Origin: an uncultured Desulfuromonadales bacterium | GTDB lineage: Bacteria > Desulfobacterota > Desulfuromonadia > Geobacterales > Pseudopelobacteraceae | Direction of reading: 5' to 3' | DNA: 46,434 bases | NCBI GenBank assembly: GCA_903868145.1 | Contig: CAIPTY010000027.1 | Coordinates: forward strand, 1-46,434 | Part shown: positions 823 to 46,434 of the stretch, piece after piece | Layout: the number at the start of each line of letters is the position of its first letter | Position numbering within the stretch: position 1 is the first letter of the stretch | Notes under the pieces: model-generated | The model's input: the letters and a program-made list of their open reading frames with translations, nothing else | Told to the model about the DNA's origin: nothing | Database searches by the model: none | Made by a program: the position numbers and the translations under genes

Positions 823-946
823 GTGCCTTAATATTGCTAGATTCCATGCCCCTTTTCTCTCAGCAAACCAATTTTATATAACCGTCCTTAATCCTTTACC
901 CTCAACATGAAAACGTTCATTGTACCGCACTCTTTTCATCAAGTTC

Positions 947-974
947 TTTATACGCTATCAATCAGAAAGAACAA
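947..974 (-). promoter_or_regulatory. Candidate promoter for the GHKL ATPase gene
   Basis: On the minus strand TTGTTC (974-969) and TATAAA (952-947) are separated by 16 bases, in the AT-rich gap between the hsdR stop and the ATPase gene. The -10 matches the sigma-70 consensus at five of six positions and the -35 at about three. This is a motif match only; the gene could also be read through from hsdR. Confidence 0.28.
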
Positions 975-986
975 AAACCAAAAAAC

Positions 987-3392: not shown

Positions 3393-3395
3393 GGG

Positions 3396-4421
3396 TTATC
3401 TCTTACCATCTTCCAGCAGTTTTTTGATATGACGATCAAAGTCCGACTCAAACAACCGATCCTGAACAATCCGGTATTTCTCATATTCACTCTCGGCAAA
3501 GGCTTTGGCAATTTCCTTGGTGACAGTACCGGGGCTATCCAGAATTTCACGTTCGTTGAACTGTAAAAAAGCGTTCAGCTTGTTGGCCCAATCCTCCATA
3601 GTCATGGGGATGTTCCGCTCTGCCTGATCCTCGGCGTAGTCGAGGTACATGCTCACAAAGCGGTCGAGTGATTTCAGCTCTTTTTCGGTAAGATAGTTTT
3701 TGGCAACCGATACATCCGGTTTGAGGATTTTGCCATCAGGGGCATTCTTCCAGGTCGTCAGCCCCATTCGTTCTTTGGCATTGTCGGCCCGATTGACGAT
3801 CAGTTCTGCTGCGGTATTCCCGTGAATGGCGAAATGGAGCTTATTCTGTACGGCAGCGAAGAAGGTTTTGGTGGTTTCTGAATCGCTGCTGTAATCCATT
3901 GCCGTTGCATAGATGTCGGTTATCTTTTGATAAAACTTCCGTTCACTCGCCCGAATCTCGCGGATTTCAGCCAGCAGGTTGTCGAAATATTCCTTGTTGA
4001 AGAAAGAGCCGTTTTTCAAGCGCTCCTTATCCAGCACGTAGCCACGAATGGCAAAGTCCCGCAACACACCGGTTGCCCATTGCCGGAACTGGGTAGCACA
4101 GGCGGAGTTAACCCTGAAACCCACTGCAATGATGGCATCCAGATTGTAAAACTTTGTGGTGTACTCCTTATCATCTTCGGCAGTGTGTCGGAATTCCCGA
4201 CATACTGAAGTTTCAGCAAGCTCTCCTGTTTCAAAGATATTCTTCAAATGTTCAGTAATGGTGCTGCGCCCTTTTTCAAACAGCACCCCGAGCAGCTTTT
4301 GCGTCAGCCAGACGGTTTCATCCTCAACGCGCACTTCGATGCTGTTTTCACCGGCCTGTTTGGTGAAGATAAGGAATTCGGCAGTGCTGTTGCGGATTTG
4401 CAGTTTTTTCTCTTTGCTCAT
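3396..4421 (-). CDS. rhuM: RhuM-family protein inside a type I RM operon
   Basis: This 341-residue protein resembles the RhuM ('virulence protein') family: an N-terminal segment with a winged-helix-like VWLTQKLLGVLFEKGRSTI motif, a conserved FYNLDAIIAVGFRVNS region, and a C-terminal helical part containing a Fic/DOC-like IHGNTAAELIVNRADN stretch. RhuM genes commonly sit between hsdS and hsdR in type I loci, as here (10 bases after hsdS, 3 bases before hsdR). Their biochemical role is not established; DNA binding is plausible from the N-terminal region. The frame is full length with no disruption. The family call is firm, the function unknown. Confidence 0.85.
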   Translation of the reverse strand: MSKEKKLQIRNSTAEFLIFTKQAGENSIEVRVEDETVWLTQKLLGVLFEKGRSTITEHLKNIFETGELAETSVCREFRHTAEDDKEYTTKFYNLDAIIAVGFRVNSACATQFRQWATGVLRDFAIRGYVLDKERLKNGSFFNKEYFDNLLAEIREIRASERKFYQKITDIYATAMDYSSDSETTKTFFAAVQNKLHFAIHGNTAAELIVNRADNAKERMGLTTWKNAPDGKILKPDVSVAKNYLTEKELKSLDRFVSMYLDYAEDQAERNIPMTMEDWANKLNAFLQFNEREILDSPGTVTKEIAKAFAESEYEKYRIVQDRLFESDFDRHIKKLLEDGKR

Positions 4422-4431
4422 GGGTAGCGTC

Positions 4432-5028
4432 CTAGAGTTGACCGGTGAAGGCTTGGTCGAGGAGTGATTTTTTCAATGCATCAAGGGCGGCGAGTTTCTT
4501 TTCTGAGTTGGCCTTGGCGGTGGCGATGCCATCAAATGCTTCATCAAGAATGGCAATGATGTGCTGTTGTTCATTTGTAGGAGGAATGGGAATTATAAGA
4601 GATTTTATGAATGGTAATTTCACACCCTGAACAGTTGCGCCAGTACCTTCATCAATAATTATTTGAGCACTGTTTTTGAACCATTGAAACAAATAACCGA
4701 CTGACAACACGGAAGTGTTTTTTGGAATAATCCCCTTTAAATCCTGATTTATTGCCGTATCATGTGCCAGCAGGCACACCTTGCCTAAACCAACTCTGGT
4801 AGCAATAACAACATTACCTTTTGGAATTACATTTGTTGAACTGCTTTTGACGGCCGCTTCTGTAATCTTGAATTCAGTTTCAGAAATAACGTCAGACTTC
4901 ATATCACGGACTGTTGCCCATGGAATGGTTCCGTTCAAGTAAAACAATTCGTTATCTTTGGAAGGCGTACCACCACCTATAACATCACACACATCTCCTA
5001 ACGTCCTATACTCCCATCCTGCCTTCAT
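4432..5028 (-). CDS. hsdS: Half-size type I specificity subunit HsdS (single TRD)
   Basis: This 198-residue protein has one target-recognition domain. It begins with the usual W..R.LGDVCDVIGGGTPS motif, continues through a TRD with IPKGNVVIATRVGLGK, and ends with PPTNEQQHIIAILDEAF and a coiled-coil dimerisation helix closing in LLDQAFTGQL. Typical HsdS proteins have two TRDs and about 400 residues, so this is half size. Half-S proteins can pair to recognise palindromic split sites (known for other systems), or the gene may have lost one TRD. The start overlaps the upstream frame's stop by 4 bases (ATGA), so translation is probably coupled. Confidence 0.88.
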   Translation of the reverse strand: MKAGWEYRTLGDVCDVIGGGTPSKDNELFYLNGTIPWATVRDMKSDVISETEFKITEAAVKSSSTNVIPKGNVVIATRVGLGKVCLLAHDTAINQDLKGIIPKNTSVLSVGYLFQWFKNSAQIIIDEGTGATVQGVKLPFIKSLIIPIPPTNEQQHIIAILDEAFDGIATAKANSEKKLAALDALKKSLLDQAFTGQL

Positions 5029-5498
5029 CTATTCCTCCGCTCATCCAACCGCTGCTGATCCCGCGCCTGCAACCTGGCTTTCGTCATCCGCTCACGCAAG
5101 CCGCCCTCTTTCAAAAAATCCTTCTCCAATCGCCGTATCTGCTGATCCAGCAGATAATTTGCCTGATGAATCAGGCAAATGGCGATGTTGGCGACTACAT
5201 TGGCAGGTCTGGTATCGACGAATTCCCGCAGATCATCGCCGGTCAGTGCTTTATTGTGGTCGAGCTTGCCGTCTGAAGTCTTGGGTGCAGCCCAGCTCTC
5301 CCAGCGGTACGGTTCATCAAGGATGAAGGTGTACGGCTTGCCCTCAAGCTGTGCCTCCATTGACTTGTCCTGCTCCAAACCGTCAAGGTACTTCAGGAAC
5401 AACAACCATGAAGTCTGCTCTGCGTAATCCAACTCACTACCGCAACCGGCCTCTTTCCAGAGAACGTCGTCGATGTTTTTGAAGGCTTGTTCAAACAT
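5025..5498 (-). pseudogene. hsdM: Remnant hsdM: N-terminal domain joined to a four-helix-bundle suffix-like sequence
   Basis: Residues 1 to about 92 match the HsdM N-terminal helical domain (W-K-E-A-G near the start, LLFLKYLDGLE, YRWESWAAPK, LDHNKALTGDDLREFVD). The frame then continues from about residue 96 (RPANVVANIAICLIHQANYLLDQQ) with a sequence resembling the 'four-helix-bundle suffix' segment known from small proteins encoded between hsdM and hsdS. The whole SAM-binding and NPPF/NPPY catalytic region of a roughly 500-residue HsdM is missing. The simplest reading is an internal deletion of more than 1 kb that fused hsdM to the end of the next gene. The frame stays open to the normal junction with hsdS (ATGA overlap). 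It is called a pseudogene because the product cannot methylate DNA; it may still be translated. Confidence 0.75.
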
Positions 5499-6832
5499 TA
5501 TTCATCCTCACTCCAAGATTCAGTCTCCAGCAAAGCAGTTGCCTCAGCTCCCGGCATCTCCTGGACTCCCTTGAGCTTTTTTTCGATGGAGCGTGAACGG
5601 ACTGCAGCTGCATCAATATGATTACCGGCTTCCTGCAGTTTTTTACTGGTTTTGTCCAGCACATCGCCAAACTTGTGGAATTCAGTGCGCACAGCACCCA
5701 GCAGATTCCAGACTTCGGCCGAGCGTTTTTCAATGGCAAGCGTACGAAATCCCATCTGGAGGCTGTTCAACAATGCGGCTAATGTCGTCGGACCGGCTAT
5801 CATCACCTTAAAATCACGCTGCAGAGCCTCAAACAGGCCGGGTCTGCGCAGAACTTCAGCATACAGCCCTTCCGTAGGCAGAAACATGACGCCAAAATCG
5901 GTGGTGTGGGGAGGATCAAGGTATTTATCCCTGATAGCCGTTGCCATCAGACGCACCGCCTTGTCGAGCTGTTTTGCAGCATCAGCCGTTGCCAGGAGAT
6001 CGCCGTTCTCCTGGGCTTCTACCAGGCGCAGATAATCCTCCTGGGGAAATTTAGCATCCAGCGGCAGCCAGATCTGACCATCGGCCGTTCCGTCACGCCC
6101 CGGCAGCCGAAGAGCAAATTCGACCCGCTGGCCGCTACCCTTTCTGGTCTCAACGTTTGCCTCGTACTGACCGGGGGAGAGTACCTGCTCCAGCAGGCTC
6201 GACAGTTGGATTTCCCCAAACGTCCCCCGTGTCTTGACATTGGTCAGCACCTTCTTGAGATCGCCCACCCCGCTGGCCAGGGTCTGCATTTCCCCCAGAC
6301 CGCGCTGGACCATTTCCAGGCGCTCGCTGACCTGTTTGAAGGATTCTCCCAGCCGTTTTTCCAGCGTATCGTGCAGTTTTTCATCGACGGTAGTCCGCAT
6401 CTGCTCCAGCTTGAGGGCATTATCTTCCTGAATAAGACGCAATCGTTCTTCAACCGTCTCCCGCAACTTGTCCATGCGTCCTTCGTTGCTGGCGGTCAGG
6501 TTTTTGAGCTGCCCGGCAAATATCTCGAGCTGATCCTTCTGCAGGCCGGCAATCTCACTCATCCGCTTCAGCAGCGAGTCACCAAAGGCCGAGACCGCTG
6601 CGGCATTTTCCTCCCGCCCCTGACGGGCTGACTGCAACGCCTCTTCACGTGAGCGCGTCAGTTCTTCCCGGAGCATTCGTTCCTGACGTTCCAGCAACCG
6701 CTCCAACGATTCTATCCGGGATGCAGCAGATAAGCTGTCATCCTTTACAGCAGAACGCTTAGCGATAAAAACGATTAGTAAAAAAGACAATACCGATATA
6801 AAAAGAACAAGATATAACAGCGCGTCAAACAT
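5498..6832 (-). CDS. rmuC: RmuC-family DNA recombination protein
   Basis: This 444-residue protein starts with one hydrophobic segment (residues about 5-23), has a long charged coiled coil (about 40-180), and then the RmuC domain, recognisable by the motifs KTRGTFGEIQLSSLLEQVL, PLDAKFPQEDY, FLPTEGLYAEVLRRPGL and GPTTLAALLNSLQMGF. RmuC proteins are PD-(D/E)xK-related factors that limit recombination at inverted repeats in E. coli; the exact activity is unproven. Its stop overlaps the hsdM remnant start (TAATG), so rmuC heads the RM transcript. An SD-like GGAG precedes the ATG. A strong hairpin separates it from ksgA upstream. Confidence 0.93.
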   Translation of the reverse strand: MFDALLYLVLFISVLSFLLIVFIAKRSAVKDDSLSAASRIESLERLLERQERMLREELTRSREEALQSARQGREENAAAVSAFGDSLLKRMSEIAGLQKDQLEIFAGQLKNLTASNEGRMDKLRETVEERLRLIQEDNALKLEQMRTTVDEKLHDTLEKRLGESFKQVSERLEMVQRGLGEMQTLASGVGDLKKVLTNVKTRGTFGEIQLSSLLEQVLSPGQYEANVETRKGSGQRVEFALRLPGRDGTADGQIWLPLDAKFPQEDYLRLVEAQENGDLLATADAAKQLDKAVRLMATAIRDKYLDPPHTTDFGVMFLPTEGLYAEVLRRPGLFEALQRDFKVMIAGPTTLAALLNSLQMGFRTLAIEKRSAEVWNLLGAVRTEFHKFGDVLDKTSKKLQEAGNHIDAAAVRSRSIEKKLKGVQEMPGAEATALLETESWSEDE

Positions 6833-6845
6833 ATTGAATCTCCAG

Positions 6846-6872
6846 ACAAAAAACCGCTAGTGCGGTTTTTTG
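6846..6872 (-). terminator. Rho-independent terminator after ksgA
   Basis: AAAAAACCGC and GCGGTTTTTT form a perfect inverted repeat around a 3-4 base loop in the 42-base gap between the ksgA stop and the rmuC start. On the minus strand it gives a GC stem followed by a T run just downstream of ksgA. The symmetric A/T flanks would let it act in both directions. Confidence 0.85.
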
Positions 6873-6874
6873 GG

Positions 6875-7684
6875 TTACATGTGTGATAGAGAGCGTGACA
6901 GGGCAGCGAATTCATCCAGAGAAAGTGTTTCCCCGCGACGCTGACCATCTATGCCGCATTCAGCCAGAATCCTCCGCAGTTCTTCAGTAGGTGCCAGTTC
7001 AGAGGCCTTCAGGCAGTTGATCAGTGTCTTGCGCCTCATGGCAAATGCGCTCTTGACGACCTGTCTGTAGACCGCCTCATCCCCTACCGCTGCACGCGGA
7101 ACCGTAAGGGGAACAAAGCTGAGGACGGCGGAGTAAACCTTGGGGCTGGGGTGAAAGCAACCGGGGGAGACCAGAAATTCGCGGCGCATGTCAAACCATA
7201 ATCCCAGCAGGGCCGTGGTAACGCCATAATCCGGGCAGTCGGGCGGCGCCACCAGACGGTCTCCGACCTCTTTTTGCAGCATCAGGATCATGCGCGACAG
7301 GCGGTTGCGAACATCCAGCAGCCTGAAGAGAACAGCCGTGGAAATATTGTAGGGGAGGTTTGCTACCACCTTCCAGCGCGACTCCGAATCACCCAGGATC
7401 GCCTCCAGATCCACGGCCAGTATATCGCCATCAATAACGGTGATGCGCGGGTCGTCCTGATAGCGTCGCTTGAGAGCTGCGGCCAGGGCGTGATCATACT
7501 CCACCAGAACTAGACGACCTGCCTGCCTGACCAGCAGTTCGGTCAGCGCCCCCCGTCCGGGACCTATCTCCAGAACGGCGTCTTCGGGTACGAGATGGGC
7601 GCTGTCGATAATCTTGTCAATGATATTGCCATCAACCAGAAAGTTCTGCCCCAGTGATTTGAGCGGACGGCGGGCGGCGCTCAC
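6875..7684 (-). CDS. rsmA: 16S rRNA dimethyladenosine transferase (KsgA/RsmA)
   Basis: This 269-residue enzyme methylates two adjacent adenosines near the 3' end of 16S rRNA (A1518 and A1519 in E. coli numbering) during small-subunit maturation. Visible family motifs are the N-terminal SLGQNFLVD, the SAM-binding EIGPGRG (39-45), and the catalytic NLPY (109-112). The C-terminal helical domain contains the FAMRRKTLINCL motif. Length is normal. Its start overlaps the tsaD stop by 4 bases (ATGA), so the two rRNA/tRNA modification genes are translationally coupled. Gene symbol ksgA is a synonym. Confidence 0.98.
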   Translation of the reverse strand: MSAARRPLKSLGQNFLVDGNIIDKIIDSAHLVPEDAVLEIGPGRGALTELLVRQAGRLVLVEYDHALAAALKRRYQDDPRITVIDGDILAVDLEAILGDSESRWKVVANLPYNISTAVLFRLLDVRNRLSRMILMLQKEVGDRLVAPPDCPDYGVTTALLGLWFDMRREFLVSPGCFHPSPKVYSAVLSFVPLTVPRAAVGDEAVYRQVVKSAFAMRRKTLINCLKASELAPTEELRRILAECGIDGQRRGETLSLDEFAALSRSLSHM

Positions 7685-8703
7685 CGGAATACCTCACTCA
7701 CGCGATCCATTTCCCAGGTAGCAGTAACGTCGAGGGTTGCGGGTGATGACAGGCCATGCTCCAGATAATAGTCACCAGGCACGGCAAGCATGGCGGCGTT
7801 ATCTCCGCAGAGCGTCGGATGGGGAATATGCAGATCAGCGCCGCATGTCAGAGCCAGCCGCGTCATACTCTCCCGCAGCCCGCTGTTGCAGGCGACCCCG
7901 CCGGCCACAACCAACCGCTTTGCTGAGGTCTGACGGATTGCCGCGGTCGTTTTAGCAACAAGCACGTCACAGACCGCCTGTTGGAAGGAGGCGCACAGGT
8001 CATTGGCCTGTCGGCCGGGAATCAAAACCGGATTTCGGGCAATCTGTTGCATCATGGCAGTTTTGAGGCCGCTGAAACTGAAATTGAGACTTCCATCGTT
8101 GATCAGGGGGCGCGGCAACTTTACTGCCTGTGCATTGCCGTCCCGCGCCATTGCATCGATCCGGGCGCCGCCGGGATATTCCAGCCCCATGATCTTGGCT
8201 GACTTGTCGAAGGCCTCACCCGCTGCATCATCAACAGTTCTGCCCAGCGTGGTGTATCGACCGACCCCTTCCACATGGTACAGATGGGTGTGCCCGCCTG
8301 AAACCACCAGCGCCAGAAAGGGGAACGGCACCACCTGTTCGAGAAAAGGGGCGAAAAGGTGCCCTTCAATATGATGCACGCCAACAAATGGAATTCCGCA
8401 CGCCAGGGAAATCGCTTTTGCGGTCGAAAGGCCTACCAGCAGCGCGCCGGAGAGCCCCGGACCCCGGGTGACCGTAATCCCTTCTATGGCGGAGAGAGGG
8501 ACATCGGCCTCAAGCAGAGCCTGTAAGATGACCGGTGTTATCATCTCCAGATGTTTGCGTGACGCTATCTCGGGAACCACTCCGCCATAGACGGCATGCG
8601 TGGTGACCTGCGACGAGACCACCGAGGAGAGAACCTCACGACCATCACGAACCACTGCCGCGGCAGTCTCATCGCAGGATGTTTCAATGGCGAGAAGCAG
8701 CAT
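7681..8703 (-). CDS. tsaD: tRNA N6-threonylcarbamoyltransferase TsaD
   Basis: This 340-residue ASKHA-fold protein transfers the threonylcarbamoyl group to A37 of ANN-decoding tRNAs, working with TsaB, TsaE and TsaC. The start MLLLAIETSCDET, the metal-binding HHIEGH motif (H111, H115), VVSGGHTHLY and AGGVACNS are all present. Length is typical. It starts 5 bases after the PhoH-family gene's stop and overlaps ksgA, consistent with one housekeeping transcript. Older annotations call this family gcp or O-sialoglycoprotein endopeptidase. Confidence 0.98.
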   Translation of the reverse strand: MLLLAIETSCDETAAAVVRDGREVLSSVVSSQVTTHAVYGGVVPEIASRKHLEMITPVILQALLEADVPLSAIEGITVTRGPGLSGALLVGLSTAKAISLACGIPFVGVHHIEGHLFAPFLEQVVPFPFLALVVSGGHTHLYHVEGVGRYTTLGRTVDDAAGEAFDKSAKIMGLEYPGGARIDAMARDGNAQAVKLPRPLINDGSLNFSFSGLKTAMMQQIARNPVLIPGRQANDLCASFQQAVCDVLVAKTTAAIRQTSAKRLVVAGGVACNSGLRESMTRLALTCGADLHIPHPTLCGDNAAMLAVPGDYYLEHGLSSPATLDVTATWEMDRVSEVFR

Positions 8704-8708
8704 TGAGA

Positions 8709-10028
8709 TTACAGCAGATTTGCGGCCAGTTCGGCCAGTTCGGAGCGTTCGCCCCTGGTGAGGGTCACATGGGCGGCAATGCGCTGGCCCTTGAACTTTT
8801 CGACCAGGTAGGTCAGTCCGTTGCTGGAGGAATCCACGTAGGGATTGTCGATCTGGTAGGGATCGCCGGTCAGAATGATCTTGGTACCCTCCCCCACCCT
8901 GGTCACGATGGTCTTGATCTCGTGGGGGGAGAGGTTCTGGGCCTCGTCAACGATCAGGTACTGGTTGGGGATCGAGCGGCCGCGAATGTAGGTCAGTGGC
9001 TCGATATCCAGCAGTCCCATGGCCATCAGTTCCTTGTAACCCTTGTTGCTGTGACGCTTGTCTGTGTCATGGCCGGAGAGCAGCAACTCCACATTGTCGA
9101 ATATCGGCTGCATCCAGGGGGTAAGTTTTTCCTCGATGTCACCGGGTAAAAAGCCCAGATCCTTGCCCATGGGGAAAACCGGCCGCGAAACAAGCAGGCG
9201 GTTATAGACGTTTTCCTCGGCGGTTTTATGCAGACCGGCTGCGATGGCCAGCAGGGTCTTCCCGGTGCCGGCCTTTCCGACGAGGGTTACAAGCTTGATG
9301 CTGTCATCCATCAACACATCCAGGGCGAAGGACTGCTCGCGGTTGCGCGCAAACAGGCTCCAGATCCCCTCCTTGGGAATCTTGCGAACCGGCACGATGC
9401 GGCCGTTCTCGGGAGAATTCCTGCAGATGGCGGTGTGGGAAGGATTACTGCTGTCCACGATTGTGATGAACTCATTTGGCAGAAGTTCCAGCGGCGCCTC
9501 CAGCCAGCCCTGGCCGTAGAAGCGGTCTACGGCATCCGGCGGAACTTCGACAGAGCGGGTGCCGGAATAGAGTTCCTGGATATCGACCTTGTCCGACTCG
9601 TAATCCTCGGCGGCCAGACCGATTGCATCGGCCTTTATGCGCAGGTTGGTGTCCTTGGTGACAAAGACCAGCTCGGTGTCCGGATTCTGGTCGCGCATAT
9701 CCATGGCCACGGACAGAATCCGGTTGTCGCCACTGTCCTCGCGCAGATCGACCGGCAGATGCTTGAGATTTTTCTCCGTGAACAATACAACCCGCAGGCT
9801 GCCGCCGCCAGGAAGCGAAATACCGACCGCCAGCGATCCCTTTTCACGCATGGTGTCAAGAACACGGGAGATCTGGCGGGCGTTCCGGCCGGTCTCGTTC
9901 ATGTCCTTCTTAAATCTATCGATTTCCTCAATAACTGTGATCGGTATTACAATATTATTTTCCTGGAACTTGAACAGGGCCTGCGGGTCATGCAGGAGCA
10001 CATTGGTATCAAGAATAAATATTTTCAT
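8709..10028 (-). CDS. PIN-PhoH fusion ATPase (PhoH2-type)
   Basis: This 439-residue protein joins an N-terminal PIN ribonuclease domain (FILDTNVLLHDP with D7; acidic residues near E34 and D37; later VTKDTNLR) to a C-terminal PhoH-type ATPase with Walker A GKAGTGKT (251-258), DEAQ (361-364) and LTGDP. Proteins with this architecture have been shown elsewhere to be ATP-dependent RNA helicase/RNases. It is likely cytosolic and RNA-processing, but its target is unknown. An AGGA ribosome site precedes the start. It lies upstream of tsaD in the same orientation. All key residues appear intact. Confidence 0.93.
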   Translation of the reverse strand: MKIFILDTNVLLHDPQALFKFQENNIVIPITVIEEIDRFKKDMNETGRNARQISRVLDTMREKGSLAVGISLPGGGSLRVVLFTEKNLKHLPVDLREDSGDNRILSVAMDMRDQNPDTELVFVTKDTNLRIKADAIGLAAEDYESDKVDIQELYSGTRSVEVPPDAVDRFYGQGWLEAPLELLPNEFITIVDSSNPSHTAICRNSPENGRIVPVRKIPKEGIWSLFARNREQSFALDVLMDDSIKLVTLVGKAGTGKTLLAIAAGLHKTAEENVYNRLLVSRPVFPMGKDLGFLPGDIEEKLTPWMQPIFDNVELLLSGHDTDKRHSNKGYKELMAMGLLDIEPLTYIRGRSIPNQYLIVDEAQNLSPHEIKTIVTRVGEGTKIILTGDPYQIDNPYVDSSSNGLTYLVEKFKGQRIAAHVTLTRGERSELAELAANLL

Positions 10029-10061
10029 GATTTCCTTTCAGAATAGCGGGAGATGTCATAA

Positions 10062-10076
10062 CCGACAGCCTGTCGG
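10062..10076. other. Short hairpin between the cysteine desulfurase and phoH genes
   Basis: CCGACA-GCC-TGTCGG is a perfect 6-bp stem with a 3-base loop in the 72-base gap. No T run follows on the minus strand, so it is not a clear terminator. It might be an RNA-stability or processing element; this is only a structural observation. Confidence 0.35.
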
Positions 10077-10100
10077 GGTTCAGAAATAGCGTGGTCAACG

Positions 10101-11240
10101 TCAGCGGAGACATTCTACAACGGCGCGTGCAAAAAGCGCAATATCTTCACGGGTGGAGAACCAGCCCGGACTCATGCGTACAGTGCCAGCCGGAAAGCTG
10201 CCCAATGTTTGATGGGCACGGGGCGCACAGTGCAGACCCGCACGTACGGCAATATCGAAACGCTGATCCAGCTCAAAAGCCAGCGATGCGGCATCCTTTC
10301 CCCTCGCGGCGCAGGAGAGCACGCCTGCGCAAACCGACTGATCTTCCGAGCCATAGAGAGTCAGGCCGGGAAGACCTTCCAGGGCGTCACGCGCAATTTT
10401 AACGAGATTACGCTCGTGACCGCCGATGATCGTCGCGCCCTGCTCCAGAACAAACTCCATACCGGCCTTGAGTCCTGCAATACCGGGAAGGTTGTGCGTA
10501 CCTGCCTCAAAACCGTCCGGAAAAGAGTCCGGTTGCTCTTCGGATGTCGAGTTGCTGCCGGTGCCTCCCGCCAGAAGCGGTCTCAATGCCACACCGGGGG
10601 CAACGGCGAGCAGCCCCGTTCCCTGGGGGCCGTACAGCCCTTTATGGCCCGGGACCGCCAGCAGGTCAATGCCAATTGAGGCAACATCGATCGGTATGCT
10701 TCCTGCGGACTGGGCTGCATCCAGCAGAAACAGGACTTCCGCCTGCCGGGCGATTTTGGCGATCAGCTCAATTGGCTGGATGGTACCCGACACGTTGGAG
10801 ACATGAGCACAGGCAATCATCCGGGTTTTCGGGGTCAAGGCGCGACGGATGTCATCGGGATCCACTCGACCATCGCTCGCAGCAGTAACGAAGGTCAGCC
10901 CTACCCCCCTTTCACGAAGAGCCTGCAGAGGACGGATCAGAGAGTTATGCTCCATCGAGGTTGTGATGACGTGGTCGCCGTCCGAGAGGGTTCCCCGCAA
11001 GGCAGTATTCAGTGATTCGGTGGCGCTGTGCGTAAATATAATCCGGGATGAGTCAGGGACGGAAAACAGTGCTGCGGCAACTTCACGGGTCTGAAACAAC
11101 AACCGGCCGGCCTCAAGTGAACGGCCATATCCGCCCCTTCCGGGAGAGGCCCCGATCTCGCGCATGGTGTGCAGAACAGCCTGGTAGACCGATTCAGGCT
11201 TTGGATAGGACGTTGCTGCATTATCCAGATACAGTGACAT
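10101..11240 (-). CDS. Cysteine desulfurase family (class V aminotransferase)
   Basis: This 379-residue PLP enzyme carries the class V signatures: the start MSLYLDNAATSYPKP, H98 in MEHNS, D174 in LLDAAQSAG, and the PLP lysine K200 in VPGHKGLYGPQGTG. A candidate catalytic cysteine lies in AGLHCAPRAH near residue 337. It would release sulfur from L-cysteine for Fe-S clusters or thio-cofactors. No IscU, SufB or thiI gene is adjacent, so the acceptor is unknown; the family also includes selenocysteine lyase-like members. It begins one base after the stop of the beta-helix gene. Confidence 0.93.
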   Translation of the reverse strand: MSLYLDNAATSYPKPESVYQAVLHTMREIGASPGRGGYGRSLEAGRLLFQTREVAAALFSVPDSSRIIFTHSATESLNTALRGTLSDGDHVITTSMEHNSLIRPLQALRERGVGLTFVTAASDGRVDPDDIRRALTPKTRMIACAHVSNVSGTIQPIELIAKIARQAEVLFLLDAAQSAGSIPIDVASIGIDLLAVPGHKGLYGPQGTGLLAVAPGVALRPLLAGGTGSNSTSEEQPDSFPDGFEAGTHNLPGIAGLKAGMEFVLEQGATIIGGHERNLVKIARDALEGLPGLTLYGSEDQSVCAGVLSCAARGKDAASLAFELDQRFDIAVRAGLHCAPRAHQTLGSFPAGTVRMSPGWFSTREDIALFARAVVECLR

Positions 11241-29235: not shown

Positions 29236-29834
29236 TGAAGTTTATAGGGAGCACCATACTGGTTTTCATTGCGGTATGCACGATTACAACCGTTTCCCAT
29301 GCAGACTTCAATTTTAACAAAACAGAGAAGCAGCAACTTCTGGACTATGCCCGTGCCACTCTGGCGGCCCGGGTAGCTGGCACAGCCCTGCCGTCACCGC
29401 CCGATTGCGCCACCCGCCAGCAGCGAGCCTGCTTCGTGACGTTCTTTATCGGCAGACGGGTCTTCGCCTGCTTTGGCGGCTTTTCACCCCGCAGGGCAAC
29501 ACTGGCCGATGAGATCAGCGAAAACGTCCGGCTGGCATTGAAGAACGATGCACGCGCCCGCTCAGTGACGCAGGAAACTGTAGCCACGGCAGGTGTGCAG
29601 ATCACATTCCCCATCGGGCAGCCGGAGAGGGTGTCAGGCTATCAGAGTATTGATCCGACACGTGAGGGAATGTTCGTAGAAGGCTCCAACGCCGGTGTGG
29701 CATTTGTCCCCGGAGAGGCCCGCACCGCGGCATGGGCCTTCCGCGAGGCCCTGCGCCGCCTGGGCGAGAGTGATCCGGCAGCGGTGGCGGTCTACAGATT
29801 CAAGGCGCTGGCAGTTTCGTCACGGCTGCATTGA
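29235..29834 (+). CDS. Exported AMMECR1-domain protein
   Basis: This 199-residue protein starts at the ATG at 29235 (TGATG overlap with the VanW stop). It has a signal peptide (MKFIGSTILVFIAVCTITT, cleavage near VSHA-DF), unlike cytosolic AMMECR1 proteins. The remainder resembles the AMMECR1 domain: LDYARATLAARVAG at the start, a divergent core (RRVFACFGGFSPRRATLADEI) and GVAFVPGEARTAAWAFREAL near the C-terminus. The usual RGCIG core motif is not preserved. AMMECR1 proteins occur with Memo and radical-SAM proteins, but none is here. A periplasmic role with VanW is inferred from coupling. Function unknown. Confidence 0.8.
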   Translation: MKFIGSTILVFIAVCTITTVSHADFNFNKTEKQQLLDYARATLAARVAGTALPSPPDCATRQQRACFVTFFIGRRVFACFGGFSPRRATLADEISENVRLALKNDARARSVTQETVATAGVQITFPIGQPERVSGYQSIDPTREGMFVEGSNAGVAFVPGEARTAAWAFREALRRLGESDPAAVAVYRFKALAVSSRLH

Positions 29835-29940
29835 AGTCTCGCACGAAGTGGCGTGAGCAGTAAGTATCCGATTAATTTTAATTTACACGTGGCTCTTTAT
29901 TTTTAGGCACGAACAGTTGGGCGAGCATGAAACCGATCAC

Positions 29941-29976
29941 TTGCATTGGTCGATTTATTGGTCTATATTTTGACCA
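29941..29976 (+). promoter_or_regulatory. Promoter and candidate operator of the toxin-antitoxin module
   Basis: TTGCAT (29941-29946) and TATATT (29964-29969) are spaced by 17 bases, a plausible sigma-70 promoter. TGGTC (29959-29963) and GACCA (29972-29976) flank the -10 as an inverted repeat, and TTGGTC occurs twice. This suits autorepression by a Phd/YefM-type antitoxin, which is an inference from known TA modules. Confidence 0.5.
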
Positions 29977-33800: not shown

Positions 33801-35956
33801 CGGCCAAGGAAAAGGCAGCCGCACCGGTGGCCGATGATAGTCTGAAGGGGCTGAAAGTTCGGAAGGTATTCAAGGATACCGCCGCCTGGTTCCCCATGCT
33901 TGAAGCAATGGCTGACGGAACCGCTACAGCCGCATTTGACCTGCCTGACAACCTGACAGCGTGGCGGGCTACCGCCATCGGCCACACACCAACCAGCCAG
34001 TTCGGCACCGCCCGGGAGAAGTTCATCGCCCGGCTGGAACTGATGGCCCGTCTGGCGCCGCCCCGATTCCTGATTGCAGGTGACGAGCTCCAGGTACCGG
34101 GTGTGATCACCAGCATGCTGGATACGGAACAGCAGGCACAGAGCCGTTTCGAAGCTACCGGCCTGACCCTGTTGGGCGAAACCGCCTTCAGCGGAGGCAT
34201 TCCCGCACGGGGGACCCTGCGGGCCAATGTGAACCTGCGGGCCGATGCGGCGGGTTCTGCCACCCTGCGCCTGCTGGCCAAAGGCAATGACAAGGGCGAC
34301 GCCATGGAGTTGACCCTGCCGGTACTGCCGCGCTCCATTTTCCGCGAGATAAGCGGGGGGATCGCCCTGCGTGATGCGGATGGGGCAACCGAACTGAACC
34401 TGCCGTCGGAGGCACTGCCCGGTACGGCGCAGTTGAAACTCACCATTGCCCCCACCATAGCCGCCAGCCTCAACGGCGCCATCAATCGACTGGTTGAGTT
34501 CCCCTACGGCTGTGTCGAACAGACACTGTCCCGTTTTATCCCTGCGGTCTATGCCAAATCGCTGTTAAAGAAAAATGGCTGGCAGCCCGACCCGGCCACT
34601 GAAGCCAAACTCCCTCAGGTGATTGCCGAGGGGATCAGGCGACTGGAGGAGATGCAGCACGAGGATGGTGGTTGGGGATGGTGGAAGAATGACGCCACCA
34701 GCATTACCATGACCGCCCATGCCGTTTATGGATTGGGGCTGGCCTCCAAAAACGGACTGGTGATTCCTGAAAACCTGCTCAAACGTGGTGTAGAGACATT
34801 GGAAAAGCTGACTGCGACAGCCATGACCGATGATCTGCCCCGCGCCTACCGGGCACTTGCCATAAACGGTGTACGCAAGAAAGATCTGGAACGTAAAATT
34901 GCGGCGGCCTGGAAGTCGCTGCCACTTTCGGAGCAACTGGCCTACGGCGATGCTTTGGGATTTATTGACCAGAAGGATGAACTCGCATCGCTCATCGGCC
35001 AGATGAAGAAAGAAATCCGGAGCGAAGGAGAGACAGCCTACCTGAAAGACACCAACGCTGAATCCTGGTGGTACGGCTGGCGCTGGGGCTCGTCTGCGGT
35101 TGAGACCACCGCGGCCATGCTCTCGCTGCTGGTCACTCAGGACGCCGCAGATCCTTTAAATGCACGACTGGCCGGTTTCCTGGCCCGCCGACAGGAGGGT
35201 GGCTGGTGGCGCACCACCACCGCCTCTGCGGCAGCGGTGAAGGCTCTGGCCGATTATGTTGCCGCCAGCGGCGAAACAACAGCCAGTTACACGGCAAACA
35301 TTTCTCTCAACGGCAACGAGCTGGGAACCTGGCGGGTGGATAACGGCAGAGTGGTGGCGGGTGATACACGACTGACCATTCCGGCGGATAGACTGAAGAG
35401 TGGAGCCAACCGTCTGAGCGTTTCCAAGGTCGGATCCGGCGCGTTCTATCTGGCTGCCAACCTGGAATACCGGGCAGCGCCCGAAGCGGCGACTTCAAGC
35501 AATGGCCTGAAGCTGGAACGAAGCTTCTACAGGGTCACGACCGCCAAAACCGGAAGTGTCTGGCTGCGTGAATATACACAACTCAATCCTGGTGAGACAG
35601 TCAAACCGGGTGACGATATCGAAGTGCGATTGATCGTGGAGAACCAGCGGGCTCTGGAATACGTCATCATCGAAGACCGCCTGCCGGCAGGATTCGAGTC
35701 GCGCGAGACCGATCGTGACCCTCGTTTCATCAGCGAAACCGGGTATATGGGATGGTATTCCCAGCGGGAGCGGCGCGACGAAAAACTGGCCTTCTTCGTC
35801 ACCACTCTGCCTGCCGGAAGGCACGAGTTCCGGCATGTGCTCTATCCGGAGCTAACGGGTCGGATGCTTGCTCTGCCGACAGCAGCTTGGCCCATGTACC
35901 AGCCGGAACTGCGGGGCGAAAGCAAGCCATGGCTCTTTGATGTAAAGGTGCATTAA
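30803..35956 (+). CDS. Bacterial alpha-2-macroglobulin family protein with thioester motif
   Basis: This 1717-residue exported protein has a signal peptide (MKVSHIFISLLLITVSFL, cleavage near AQA) without a lipobox, an N-terminal run of carboxypeptidase-regulatory/Ig-like domains (about 30-290), macroglobulin domains with GYIYTDRPAYRPAQDVFFKG (about 480), and an A2M core with LGVVDEAIYAI and PDNLTAWRATAIGH. The reactive thioester motif CVEQ (C1237, Q1240 in YGCVEQTLSRF) is intact, followed by the alpha-toroid (EMQHEDGGWGWWKNDATS). Bacterial A2Ms are thought to trap proteases in the periplasm. No pbpC partner is next to it. AAGGAG lies 6 bases before the ATG. Confidence 0.95.
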   Translation: MKVSHIFISLLLITVSFLTIPPAQAAPKPQDARGTVMMAETNKPVAGAEITFFSTNDKGMAATATAKCVSGPEGTFRLTLPAATYTWFVKADGFGTMQNSMTVTDKPVELSTVYLQKPAELFGRVVDGSGAGVAGAVIAANALNTVTSGSDGRFRLAALTPQGYEPALRKPGWVLEKTIYYHLASGEKKDMGDLVIRRAAALNVHISVREKGQPSQLQNISVSLSGSGIYRSGKADKKGLMTLGNLPPGRYAVSVSDERLKDSKQELLIGEGQNSETTLVAELKPPSLSIEEYNEVFLPNKPFKLRANSLRVEKAEAVLSQVSATGLLDGSFDLRKPDAIPVGALKKNVSIPVVFKARRDSHSRYGRFSLPGLQPGAYLLELKGNGATARFGFLVTRLGLIAKTSPNGTLLFATDLISGSPLAGVRIGSLPRSGSAVSDQQGLAVWKGAANSTSLTGHNGDNLAFLELPTGEEVTKAASLKGYIYTDRPAYRPAQDVFFKGVLRQRAGEGYQLPTLPQVRVTIKDDNDKAVCDSSFSVSAKGSFHGKCPLPPVPALGEYSITASGGGESWQGSFRVLEYRKPEFEVKAVADRRFLVAGDTGQIKVSGRYYFGAPVAGGKLVWRIYSKPAWGLGAAGGDDDTNDEEGRAGGGYADFIGEGETKLDENGEAIIPVTGNTHDAPFTYTLEADVTDASTRQVSGSGSVNVVPSLVSLNVKAGNYLARPGDPQDIALRAATWEGAAVALPLKLSFERQIYDKKTRSYLWQETENTSLNTATDGSARTRFSFPSPGYWQIKAEGADEAGRKSVATTSVWVWKAGFSWEGSYRELEAEFDRKSYKPGETARLIVRAPITGGSLLLTLEGRDIASTRIVPLKGMVEVIEIPVTEAHAPYIQISAVAVGGGRFFSRTLPLRVDYQPDKLELKVTPDRPVYAPGDPVRLTISASRSGKPVPTEISLGVVDEAIYAIAKERPDDIWQFFRGTREHLVTTLHSFPRVYLGGAAKEKAAAPVADDSLKGLKVRKVFKDTAAWFPMLEAMADGTATAAFDLPDNLTAWRATAIGHTPTSQFGTAREKFIARLELMARLAPPRFLIAGDELQVPGVITSMLDTEQQAQSRFEATGLTLLGETAFSGGIPARGTLRANVNLRADAAGSATLRLLAKGNDKGDAMELTLPVLPRSIFREISGGIALRDADGATELNLPSEALPGTAQLKLTIAPTIAASLNGAINRLVEFPYGCVEQTLSRFIPAVYAKSLLKKNGWQPDPATEAKLPQVIAEGIRRLEEMQHEDGGWGWWKNDATSITMTAHAVYGLGLASKNGLVIPENLLKRGVETLEKLTATAMTDDLPRAYRALAINGVRKKDLERKIAAAWKSLPLSEQLAYGDALGFIDQKDELASLIGQMKKEIRSEGETAYLKDTNAESWWYGWRWGSSAVETTAAMLSLLVTQDAADPLNARLAGFLARRQEGGWWRTTTASAAAVKALADYVAASGETTASYTANISLNGNELGTWRVDNGRVVAGDTRLTIPADRLKSGANRLSVSKVGSGAFYLAANLEYRAAPEAATSSNGLKLERSFYRVTTAKTGSVWLREYTQLNPGETVKPGDDIEVRLIVENQRALEYVIIEDRLPAGFESRETDRDPRFISETGYMGWYSQRERRDEKLAFFVTTLPAGRHEFRHVLYPELTGRMLALPTAAWPMYQPELRGESKPWLFDVKVH

Positions 35957-35961
35957 GAGTC

Positions 35962-35990
35962 TTGTCTACAGCCCCGGACAGTGGTATGCT
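35962..35990 (+). promoter_or_regulatory. Candidate promoter for the monoheme cytochrome gene
   Basis: TTGTCT (35962-35967) and TATGCT (35985-35990) are 17 bases apart, just after the macroglobulin stop. Each matches four of six sigma-70 consensus positions. The leader then contains a small GCCGGG...CCCGGC hairpin (36007-36030). No riboswitch consensus was recognised. Confidence 0.38.
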
Positions 35991-36063
35991 TCTTCGCACA
36001 ACGCTTGCCGGGCGGGCGGTAGGTCCCGGCAACGAAATTTGTGGTTTGAAAGGGGAATTATCA

Positions 36064-36360
36064 ATGAAGCAACGTATCATCACTGCCACAGTTGTCGCAG
36101 CACTGGGAATGTTTGCATCTGCAGCTTGTGCCGCCGATGGCGGCGAGGCCTTATTCAAGGCCAAATGCGCATCCTGCCATCCGAATGGCGGCAACATTAT
36201 CAACAAAAGCAAGACCCTCAAAGGGATCAAGGATGTTAAGAAAATCACCAGCAAAATCCGCGCAGGCGGGGGCGGCATGACCGCATTCGATGCCAAGAAT
36301 GTCTCGGATGCCGACGCCAAACTCGTGGCTGATTACATCATAAAAACGTTCAAAAAATAA
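36064..36360 (+). CDS. Small monoheme c-type cytochrome
   Basis: The 98-residue precursor starts MKQRIITATVVAALGM, with AAGGGG upstream and a signal peptide ending near ACA (residue 23). The mature protein has one heme site, C35-A-S-C38-H39, and a likely distal ligand M72 in GGGGMTAFDAKNV. It resembles class I cytochromes of the c6/c553 type: about 75 mature residues, DAKLVADYIIKTFKK at the end. It is probably a soluble periplasmic electron carrier. The longer in-frame start at 35962 overlaps the promoter and is rejected. Confidence 0.93.
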   Translation: MKQRIITATVVAALGMFASAACAADGGEALFKAKCASCHPNGGNIINKSKTLKGIKDVKKITSKIRAGGGGMTAFDAKNVSDADAKLVADYIIKTFKK

Positions 36361-43636: not shown

Positions 43637-44830
43637 ATGCAAAAACCTGACAAAGAAGGACATTTTGGAAAATTTGGCGGCCGCTATGTGCCTGAGACAC
43701 TCATGCCAGCCCTGCTGGAGCTGCAAAAGGTCTATGAACACTATCGCCATGATCGCGAGTTTTGTCAGGAGTTTGAACACTATCTGAGGAACTACGTCGG
43801 TCGCCCCAACCCGCTCTATTTTGCTGAAAAACTCTCAAAAAAACTCGGTGGCGCCAGGGTCTACCTCAAGCGCGAGGATCTCAATCACACCGGAGCCCAC
43901 AAGATCAACAACACCATCGGACAGGGTCTGCTGGCTAAACGTATGGGAAAAAAGCGGGTGATCGCCGAAACCGGTGCCGGTCAGCACGGCGTTGCGACGG
44001 CGACAATAGCGGCACTGTTCGGCATGTCTTGCGAGGTCTTCATGGGTAAAGAAGACACACGTAGGCAGGCCCTCAACGTCTTCCGTATGCGGCTTTTGGG
44101 AGCCACCGTCACGTCGGTAACTGCTGGCACCGCAACCCTCAAGGACGCCATGAACGAGGCCATGCGCAACTGGGTAACGACGATCAAGGATACCTTTTAT
44201 GTGATCGGCACCGTGGCTGGTCCGCACCCCTACCCCATGATGGTGCGGGATTTTCAGTCCGTCATCGGGCACGAGGCGAAAAAGCAGCACCGCGCAGCAG
44301 AGGGACGACTGCCGGATTATCTTGTGGCGTGTATTGGTGGTGGAAGTAACGCGCTTGGCCTGTTCTATCCTTTCCTGAAAAACCGGAAGGTAAAGATGGT
44401 CGGTGTTGAGGCGGCAGGATACGGTATTGAAACGGGCATGCATGCCGCCGCGCTCTGTGCCGGTTCACCCGGCATCCTACACGGCAACATGACCTACCTG
44501 CTACAGGATCAGCATGGTCAGATCACCCACGCACACTCCATTTCGGCTGGGCTGGATTACCCTGGTGTTGGCCCGGAGCATTCATGGCTCAAGGACAGCG
44601 GTCGGGCCGAGTACGTATCCGTCACTGATGACGAGGCACTCGAAGGCTTCAGGATGCTTACCCAGGAGGAGGGGATCATGCCCGCACTTGAGTCGGCCCA
44701 TGCCATTGCCCACGTGATCCGCATGGCTCCAAAACTTTCAAAAGAGTGTACCATAGTGGTATGCCTTTCCGGGCGCGGAGACAAGGACATTCATACCGTG
44801 GCAGATGCAATGGGCGTAGTATTTACATAA
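43637..44830 (+). CDS. trpB: Tryptophan synthase beta subunit (TrpB1)
   Basis: This 397-residue enzyme condenses indole with serine. It has [16 protein letters not shown], the PLP lysine K89 in [42 protein letters not shown] and SLSGRGDKD-type C-terminal motif [13 protein letters not shown]. It is the TrpA-dependent form, yet trpA does not follow; a tRNA gene does. The end of the protein is complete. Confidence 0.98.
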
Positions 44831-44866
44831 GAAGTGCCGTTTTTGAATTGGTCGAAGGAATTTTTC

Positions 44867-44896
44867 TTGACAATGCAAGGACATTTCTGTTAGAAA
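44867..44896 (+). promoter_or_regulatory. Promoter of the tRNA-Ala gene
   Basis: A perfect -35 TTGACA (44867-44872) is followed by TTAGAA/TAGAAA (44890-44896) as the -10, at 17 or 18 bases, ending 15 bases before the tRNA. The -10 is weak, as often seen where the -35 is perfect. Confidence 0.65.
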
Positions 44897-44911
44897 GGCA
44901 CGCTAATTTAA

Positions 44912-44987
44912 GGGGCTGTAGCTCAGCTGGGAGAGCGCTTGACTGGCAGTCAAGAGGTCGACAGTTCGATCCTGTTCAGCTCCACCA
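44912..44987 (+). tRNA. tRNA-Ala (GGC anticodon)
   Basis: The 76-base sequence folds as a complete cloverleaf: acceptor GGGGCTG with CAGCTCC, D arm GCTC...GAGC, anticodon stem CTTGA/TCAAG around loop CTGGCAG, T-loop TTCGATC, and an encoded CCA end (44985-44987). The anticodon GGC reads GCC and GCU alanine codons. It has its own promoter and terminator. No integrase is next to it within the window. Confidence 0.97.
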
Positions 44988-44994
44988 AATAATC

Positions 44995-45030
44995 AAGCAC
45001 TTACAGAGTTTTCTTGTAGGTGCTTTTTTT
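44995..45030 (+). terminator. Rho-independent terminator after tRNA-Ala
   Basis: AAGCACTTACA and TGTAGGTGCTT form an 11-bp stem (one wobble pair) with a 9-base loop, ending in a run of seven T. It begins 8 bases after the tRNA CCA. Confidence 0.93.
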
Positions 45031-45040
45031 GTTATTTTTT

Positions 45041-45064
45041 AAAAGTGACTTGAAAAGTGACTTA
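45041..45064 (+). repeat. Tandem 12-bp direct repeat downstream of tRNA-Ala
   Basis: AAAAGTGACTTG is followed directly by AAAAGTGACTTA (11 of 12 identical), just after the tRNA terminator. It could be an old integration-site border or a chance duplication. The 45065-45222 stretch that follows has no recognised gene. Confidence 0.5.
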
Positions 45065-45222
45065 CAGCCATTCTCTAGCATCCTTGTTACCCCTCTAAAA
45101 AATATTATCCCTCTCACAGCAGGGGAGCAACCGGTTCTATTATGTCCCACGCCCGAGAGGTGAAGCATCGTCATCTGGCAATTTTCCTTACCGAAACGAC
45201 ATAGACGGTGAAACCGTTTCGA

Positions 45223-45330
45223 TTATTTTTTCTTTTCGGCCTTTTTGATCTTCTTGTCCGCTTTCTTTTCCTTCGGAGTTTTGGCAGGTGCTTTCTTTTC
45301 GGATTTTTTGCTGTCTTCACCTTTGCTCAT
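45223..45330 (-). CDS. Lysine-rich 35-residue small protein
   Basis: On the minus strand an ATG at 45330 with GGAG about 7 bases upstream begins a 35-residue frame ending in TAA at 45223. The product (MSKGEDSKKSEKKAPAKTP..., about half lysine) is very basic and rich in K, A, E and P, like the tails of histone-H1-like or nucleoid-binding proteins. A hairpin (ACGGTTTCACCGT) follows the stop. No known family. The plus-strand frames over it (45208 and 45245) are shadows of its A/T-rich codons. Moderate confidence: composition could be chance, but the ribosome site and clean start support it. Confidence 0.55.
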   Translation of the reverse strand: MSKGEDSKKSEKKAPAKTPKEKKADKKIKKAEKKK

Positions 45331-45470
45331 AATAGTCTCCTTTTCTGGTTATGCTGCGGATTTATGGATGCATCCAAGGCGGATTCAGGATATGGGAGTT
45401 ATAATCGCAAAAAAATATTTTCAACAGACTGATTTTTTGATCAGAAGGATTACTCTTCAGAGTCATAAAA
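45331..45470. other. Gap between the magnetochrome/PDZ gene and the lysine-rich ORF
   Basis: This 140-base AT-rich region lies downstream of the PDZ gene on the minus strand. A short CTGAT...ATCAG stem followed by a T-rich tract (about 45436-45410) could be a weak terminator. No -35/-10 pair for the small ORF was clear. Confidence 0.3.
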
Positions 45471-46434
45471 TTATACTTTAACAGTTAGATAGAGCGGATT
45501 ACCGGCGCGGATGACATCAAGCATGAAACCCATTTTCGTATCAACTCTTTTAGTCAGTTGGATAAATGTGTTCATGTCCGCAGCCTGTCTACCGTCAACT
45601 CCCACAATGATGTCTCCAACTTTTAAACCTGAAAGCCTCAGAATACCACCAGTGTCACTCACATATACACCATTCTTCTGATAGGGTGCCAAAGCCGGAC
45701 TAAGGGGCGTCATTTCAGCCCCGAGCCACTCAAACTCCGCTTGCTGGCGTACCTGTGCGGCTGGTGCTAATGTGGGCACCCCGACTCCCGTTTGTATTTT
45801 AAGCGTTTGCCGCGTATTGTTTCTCAAAACCACCAGATCAAATTTGCTGCCGGTTTTCTGTCCGGCCAGTACCTGATTGAAACCTTTAATGTCTTGAATC
45901 TTTCGACCGGCGGCCCGGATAATAATATCGCCCCTCCGGAGTCCGGCAGTATCGGCCGGGGATCCGGCCTTAACGTTATTAACAAGTACTCCTTCAGGAA
46001 GCACCATATTGAATTGACGAGCAACGATGTCATCAACCTCCAGCAGTTCAATGCCGAGATATGGGCCAACTGTTGCAGTCGTGGCGGCTACCGGAAGATA
46101 AGCTGGACCGGTGCCGTTTCTCAAACCGATCTGATTAGCCGGTGCTGGATTGCCTAAGCCGTTTCCCTGTCGAAGTCCTTGTCCTTGTCCGCTTCCATTG
46201 CCCAGTCCAGGTCCTTGACCGTTTCCAGGGCCAGTTTGACCAAATAACTGCGGGTGACAGTCTACACAATTGCCCCTGAAGGGGTGGGGTGCGACGATGG
46301 TTTGACCGCTCGGCAGCCGGAATGTATTGCCGATCTGTCTGCCACAGCGGGCCCAGGCGGCCAATTGACCGGTGCCGACATCAGGCGCGGTGTTGTTGAA
46401 GTCGATTACGCCGCCGACCAGTTCGGAGGCGCGG
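45471..46434 (-). CDS. Partial protein with magnetochrome-like CxxCH motif and two PDZ domains (N-terminus beyond right edge)
   Basis: The frame is open through the right edge, so the start is missing; the TTG at 46364 is an internal codon. In order, it encodes a segment ending GQLAAWARCGRQIGN, the motif PHPFRGNCVDCH (heme site CVDCH at 46268-46254), a G/N/Q-rich linker (GNGQGPGLGNGSGQGQGL; about 46250-46150), PDZ domain 1 (YLGIELLEVDD...LRRGDIIIRAAGRKIQD) and PDZ domain 2 (WLGAEMTPLS...LKVGDIIVGVDGRQAAD), ending LYLTVKV. The PH-x(3)-G-x-C-x-x-C-H pattern and PDZ association resemble the magnetochrome proteins MamP and MamE of magnetotactic bacteria. It is probably exported and redox-active; an actual magnetosome role is not implied. 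Confidence 0.85.
   Translation of the reverse strand, partial: RASELVGGVIDFNNTAPDVGTGQLAAWARCGRQIGNTFRLPSGQTIVAPHPFRGNCVDCHPQLFGQTGPGNGQGPGLGNGSGQGQGLRQGNGLGNPAPANQIGLRNGTGPAYLPVAATTATVGPYLGIELLEVDDIVARQFNMVLPEGVLVNNVKAGSPADTAGLRRGDIIIRAAGRKIQDIKGFNQVLAGQKTGSKFDLVVLRNNTRQTLKIQTGVGVPTLAPAAQVRQQAEFEWLGAEMTPLSPALAPYQKNGVYVSDTGGILRLSGLKVGDIIVGVDGRQAADMNTFIQLTKRVDTKMGFMLDVIRAGNPLYLTVKV

Follow-up and report, generated by a model that had tools for sequence, protein, structure and literature searches.

The DNA analysed here, hereafter the window, is the whole of contig C27 (46,434 nucleotides) of assembly G000 (3.80 Mb, 103 contigs, 97% complete), from an uncultured Desulfuromonadales bacterium. 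At its right-hand end an open reading frame (ORF) on the minus strand, 45471–46433, very probably encodes the C-terminal portion of another MamE-type protein, a duplicate of the mamE gene in the magnetosome cluster of the same, magnetosome-gene-bearing bacterium. Because the window spans the contig from end to end, the ORF is open at its 5′ side and runs off the end of C27 with 320 residues in hand, as a sequence-only reading of this DNA had noticed in describing the N-terminus as cut.

Domains of the truncated ORF and its full-length paralog

MamE is an HtrA/DegP-type protease with magnetochrome (MCR) domains between the protease and the PDZ domains. According to the available text of PMC3971196, loss of mamE and its paralog limE stops magnetite formation in Magnetospirillum magneticum AMB-1; a protease-impaired MamE variant fails to restore magnetite, while heme mutants restore it partly.

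The window ORF holds a single magnetochrome-like c-type heme site, PHPFRGNCVDCH (46254–46295, minus strand), scored with Pfam, in an MCR search of the genome and on an MCR profile of the clade; the only CxxCH of the 320 residues sits in SGQTIVAPHPFRGNCVDCHPQL. A Gly/Asn/Gln-rich linker (46065–46244, minus strand) leads to PDZ1 (residues 124–214; 45792–46064, minus strand) and PDZ2 (residues 230–318; 45480–45746, minus strand). Pfam PDZ_2 matches the tandem in two stretches at 81.6 bits, against a cut-off of 27. The sequence-only reading had called the linker unusual, and its composition bears this out, with 17 Gly, 7 Gln and 6 Asn in the 54 residues 62–115; a search for a tandem-repeat origin gave just one 6-base repeat of 2.7 copies. 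Structure prediction of the 320-residue fragment with four relatives yielded a mean predicted local distance difference test (pLDDT) score of 49, with PDZ1 the best-predicted part and block means of 25–38 over residues 1–120. PDZ2 is matched by the PDZ domain of MamP 4jj0 (E 3.5e-6) and by DegP-type PDZ domains, and over the whole tail DegP-type chains outscore 4jj0.

The same reading had likened the heme motif and tandem PDZ domains to MamE and MamP. Two PDZ domains above the Pfam cut-off and a MamE-type paralog on contig C78 uphold that likeness. Two features are shared with MamP: the PDZ2 match and a heme site resembling the MamP sites of the clade. However, MamP places its PDZ domain before two C-terminal MCR domains, whereas the window protein has the reverse order, with its one heme site ahead of the two PDZ domains, and a protease in its paralog; it is not a MamP. 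In MamE the heme site is followed by either one or two PDZ domains, and here there are two.

The C78 paralog is full-length, a 592-residue protein in the order protease-MCR-PDZ-PDZ. Its trypsin-type domain carries the catalytic residues His154, Asp187 and Ser263, and its sole CxxCH lies at residue 354, so that if the lost half of the window gene resembles C78, further heme sites upstream are unlikely. The Trypsin-MCR-PDZ-PDZ architecture is that of MamE, and C78 shares it with eight two-PDZ relatives, all on contigs that also carry MamK. Unlike typical MamE, these proteins have one MCR in place of the usual tandem and a long, variable linker, and the window fragment and C78 score far under the NCBIfam MamE cut-off; the window copy in addition lacks its N-terminal half, and no other mam gene was recognised on its contig. 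The available text of PMC3971196 describes MCR domains as mostly in tandem, with single-MCR MamE also known. The MamE of Ca. Magnetobacterium bavaricum (Trypsin-MCR0-PDZ) and MamE′ of SS-5 described there likewise have one MCR between protease and PDZ, but the proteins studied here have two PDZ domains and belong to another bacterial lineage.

A genome-wide MCR search found two domains above the Pfam cut-off on contig C15, in one PDZ protein (MamP). We scanned 20 proteins from ORFs around this gene and the start of C78 against NCBIfam. MamK (452 bits, cut-off 400), MamM (377, cut-off 350) and FeoB (357.5, cut-off 315.65) passed, and the models for MamP (211 of 300 bits), MamB (197 of 350), MamA (144 of 200) and MamQ (48 and 97 of 250) were each the top match of their respective proteins despite scores below cut-off. 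C15 at its end and C78 at its start share an exact 141-base overlap, from which we infer that the two contigs adjoin. The mam-like genes that the sequence-only reading had proposed to look for next to the ORF were thus found on other contigs of the same genome, and its description of a non-magnetosome setting fails: the window gene appears isolated because the contig edge cuts it off. Searches of the genome with the MCR, MamE, MamQ and MamK models matched C27 in the ORF at 45471–46433 or nowhere. The MamQ model matched on C26, C78 and C15, with none on C27, and the C26 match (29431–29952; 86.9 bits, cut-off 250) may be an ordinary LemA protein. MamK matched on C15 and C10, again with none on C27; the C10 match (73.5 bits, far under cut-off) is probably MreB.

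A similar mam gene order was seen in the related metagenome-assembled genomes (MAGs) L034 and L035, both named Geobacteraceae, and in G026 and G059, as judged by ORF resemblance, with searches backing MamE, MamK and MCR there. Across the order, MCR was above cut-off in 9 of 141 genomes and MamK in the same nine, eight of them in genus g7 and the ninth being G000; the three other genomes listed in the genus of G000 had neither above cut-off. Close relatives of the C78 protein (E ≤ 1e-45) were present in 9/9 MamK genomes and in 0/7 of the MamK-free genomes tested. At least two MamE copies, counted by contig, occur in seven of the nine. Three assemblies (G131, G132 and G133) appear to be the same as G058, G057 and G059, having identical coordinates. 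We aligned 19 MamE copies, leaving out the fragment G132:C31; ten have two PDZ domains and nine have one, and G000 is the only genome with two copies of the two-PDZ form. All eight two-PDZ copies of other genomes share a contig with MamK, and some one-PDZ copies adjoin genes for a MamQ-like protein and a five-CxxCH cytochrome (L037, L065).

Two further loci of these relatives were recorded. Contig C236 of G057 (the same as G132:C236; locus L067) holds at 769–10715 a second compact magnetosome cluster with a second MamK above cut-off and a one-PDZ MamE, together with ORFs that resemble MamA, MamM, MamB and a shortened MamP. Some kilobases past the magnetosome cluster of G026, contig C11 (locus L050, 5908–7385) carries a tRNA-Glu followed by an integrase-like ORF, named by resemblance, which hints at an integrative island at that cluster.

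The literature offers partial precedents. PMC7449369, in the text available, lists three Pelobacteraceae MAGs with mam genes, which the available part of PMC9376291 places under Desulfobulbia, and the accessible text of PMC9840458 treats the Desulfobacterota proteins MamE-Cter, MamE-Nter and MamEO as mamE homologs. A literature search on magnetosome genes in Geobacterales and in Desulfuromonadales/Geobacter returned no paper, from which we do not conclude that clusters of this kind are unpublished.

A near-identical tract and a diverged tail

The window protein aligns with C78 in two pieces, at 57% and 93% identity. At the DNA level, the last 189 bp of the contig (46246–46434, minus strand) match C78:1166–1354 at 186 of 189 bases (98%), the first 90 being exact. 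Over the 61 codons compared, all 61 residues are the same and three changes are synonymous, giving by simple Nei-Gojobori counts a pS of 0.065 and a pN of 0. The tail retains 116 of 195 residues, with a pS of 0.75 (saturated) and a pN of 0.25. By comparison, the C78 tract shares 38–42 of 61 residues with nine copies of relatives. In a midpoint-rooted tree of the ten two-PDZ tails, window and C78 pair at 100/100. Taken together, the tail divergence, the trees and the near-identical tract suggest an old duplication and a recent likeness of the tract. At the level of sequence comparison, the mamE duplication looks old and, among the genomes seen, lineage-specific, and recent gene conversion or recombination would be the simplest reading of the tract.

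Additional mamE copies are familiar elsewhere. The accessible text of PMC6819731 reports duplication of mam genes, mamE included, as common in Alphaproteobacteria, and AMB-1 has three MamE paralogs (PMC3971196, text as available). LimE and the MamE-like proteins of that strain resemble the present case in being additional copies off the main copy, one of them in a separate islet; they differ in that here a tract is nearly identical to the main copy and the tail diverged.

These results also bear on the proposal that the ORF encodes an independent periplasmic Fe(II)/Fe(III) redox protein with no part in magnetosome biology and ancestral to MamE and MamP. The sequence-only reading had suggested a protein older than the magnetosome forms or descended from them, and it had correctly reported trp genes, a tRNA and a small basic ORF as neighbours, with no other mam-like gene; we too saw none among the window ORFs of at least 150 residues read by eye. 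Such surroundings would suit a protein of that kind. Against it stand the magnetosome cluster in the same genome, the restriction of above-cut-off MCR to the nine MamK genomes of the order, the matching distribution of MamE relatives and the grouping of the tail with the cluster copy, and we regard the proposal as very improbable.

Evidence against the assignment, and alternatives

Several observations weigh against the interpretation of the window gene as a mamE duplicate with a converted tract. A tree built on PDZ1 alone from all 19 copies pairs window and C78 at 94/93 and leaves 10 of its 16 inner forks open. A search of the genome DNA with the contig's last 335 bases matched C27 and C78 only, revealing no 5′ protease half for the window copy. 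At the contig end 90 bases match C78 exactly, fewer than the 141-base overlap of C15 and C78, so the contig break does not fit the pattern seen there. Two NCBIfam models, a Pfam model and one heme site among the relatives, all discussed below, belong with these points.

The main alternative to gene conversion is a chimeric or strain-derived contig end, in which an assembly or strain junction joins a tail from an old paralog or another strain to a 5′ tract from a C78 variant. The contig does end within the tract, the identity changes sharply, the C15/C78 overlap does not explain the break, and 90 exact bases followed by three synonymous differences are what a strain variant would show. However, the reading frame continues across the junction, which falls at the homologous position, and the tail forms a stop-free two-PDZ arm with the architecture of the cluster copies of the clade. 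We consider a chimera unlikely, and favour gene conversion or recombination between two genuine copies.

Among the protein family models, NF040960 (NCBIfam MamE) gives the window fragment 66.1 bits and its cut-off of 800 is not reached, while the best NCBIfam match is TIGR02037 (degP_htrA_DO) at 94.5 bits, itself short of its cut-off of 416.2. The full-length C78 protein behaves in the same way, with 259.8 bits for NF040960 and a higher 305.5 bits for degP_htrA_DO. Since the NF040960 cut-off is missed, we call the protein MamE-type from its paralogy and from the cluster setting in which its relatives occur. A fragment of an ordinary DegP/DegQ stress protease that carries a CxxCH by chance would account for the top match to TIGR02037 and for a Pfam MCR score near background. 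Yet the matched DegP-like proteins of this genome, on C46 (locus L028) and C42 (locus L029, an ORF without CxxCH), are only 28–31% identical to the window protein, and the close paralog C78 lies in the mam cluster. The heme evidence below likewise speaks against a stress protease, which we find scarcely credible.

On Pfam Magnetochrome (PF18509) the window heme site scores 13.5 bits (E 0.053; cut-off 30.4), so that this model alone does not establish an MCR domain in the window gene. In the whole-genome search the site reached 16.7 bits, compared with 15.4 for the top site outside mam genes, and the generic model alone therefore cannot tell it from background. The PF18509 cut-off is likewise missed by eight further MamE-type proteins from the clade when each is scanned by itself, six scoring 12.4–23.9 bits and two having no match at E 0.5. 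We built a clade profile from nine MCR sites in five MamP proteins, this genome's own MamP included, and ran it on 105 distinct CxxCH sites from the window and the related loci collected, which also supplied all control sites; MamP second sites near the C-terminus were omitted. The best 75 of the 105, sorted by reading, contain 12 MamP and 30 MamE sites, and the other sites total 63, 30 of these ranking lower. Window and C78 sites both score 22.3 bits and the top non-mam CxxCH 10.6; 29 of the 30 MamE sites lie at 14.1–23.3 bits, and one, from G026, falls under the top non-mam site at 9.0. In the aligned MamE rows the first CxxCH is invariant together with its PH and G. The profile comparison proposed by the sequence-only reading gave a PDZ match above the Pfam cut-off and an MCR match below it. 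By resemblance, the window also holds a small c-type cytochrome gene (36064–36360, plus strand; start codon set by eye in the open frame 35941–36360), with a signal-peptide-like start and a single CxxCH (CASCH), at 1.2 bits on the clade profile; it lies after a gene for a 1717-residue protein, alpha-2-macroglobulin-like by resemblance.

The window copy could instead be a MamO-like partner, a duplicated protease that has lost catalysis and regulates MamE. Among the scanned cluster ORFs, besides C78 only a TauE-type protein matched MamO, weakly and in its C-terminal part (39.9 bits), which leaves room for such a partner; no genome-wide search with the MamO model was made. Conversely, the His/Asp/Ser triad is kept in 17/17 MamE-type copies covering all three positions, a count that excludes two of the 19 rows for want of coverage, the window copy among them. 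A MamO-like role is, in our estimation, rather doubtful.

Neighbourhood and proposed role

At lower window coordinates than the ORF lie trpB (43637–44830, plus strand), the last gene in common with congeners at the same place, and a tRNA-Ala(GGC) (44912–44987, plus strand) between trpB and the mamE copy; a 35-residue lysine-rich ORF (45223–45330, minus strand) lies downstream of the mamE copy. After trpB, congeners G003 and G001 have genes that by reading partly resemble a succinate dehydrogenase/fumarate reductase set, and the contig of congener G002 stops just past trpB and is uninformative. The segment 44831–46434 was thus not found there in these two congeners, as an insertion or a rearrangement would predict. 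In six related loci (G001, G003, G008, G009, G026 and G134; 3.7–10.4 kb each after trpB) ARAGORN detected no tRNA-Ala, and the ORFs inspected included none that looked like mamE. A blastn search with the tRNA and the 113 bases after it gave no match in 14 related loci, nor did 44831–45470 match in the related loci searched, five loci that copy the window end being excluded. These negative results do no more than suggest insertion at the tRNA-Ala as an island attachment site. An Rfam scan recovered the tRNA alone, and promoter and terminator scans were near shuffle expectation. Far from the ORF, at 987–5498 on the minus strand, are genes resembling a type I restriction-modification system (helicase-, specificity- and methylase-like) with a RhuM-like gene between them.

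By analogy with known MamE proteins, the window gene, if expressed, may work as follows. The lost N-terminal half would carry a membrane anchor and a trypsin-type domain, as in C78. The heme might exchange electrons inside the magnetosome, and the PDZ arms might hold magnetosome proteins by their tails and regulate the protease; together, PDZ and protease action could contribute to protein sorting and to the initiation or maturation of magnetite crystals. The second copy would have arisen when the cluster mamE was duplicated in this lineage. The C-terminal arm of this copy has diverged, with a replacement rate far below the synonymous rate, and at least the 189 bp read on its 5′ side are nearly identical to C78, most simply through recent gene conversion or recombination. 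We put forward tentatively, as a possibility short of an expectation, that this bacterium has two two-PDZ MamE proteins whose heme part, and perhaps whole protease half, is kept identical by gene conversion, that their linkers and PDZ arms have diverged toward different magnetosome clients, and that the second copy either inserted next to the tRNA-Ala outside the main cluster or was left behind there.

The window gene now reads as a magnetosome paralog, ordinary but informative, in place of a speculative "pre-magnetosome" redox protein, and a magnetosome cluster is shown in one genome of its genus, within a family that also includes MAGs named Geobacteraceae. If the pattern of tract and arm is real, it would be a natural experiment on the role of the MamE PDZ arms. 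Specialisation of paralogs by divergence of the arms, with a shared protease-heme engine, would then be a concrete and testable mode of magnetosome evolution.
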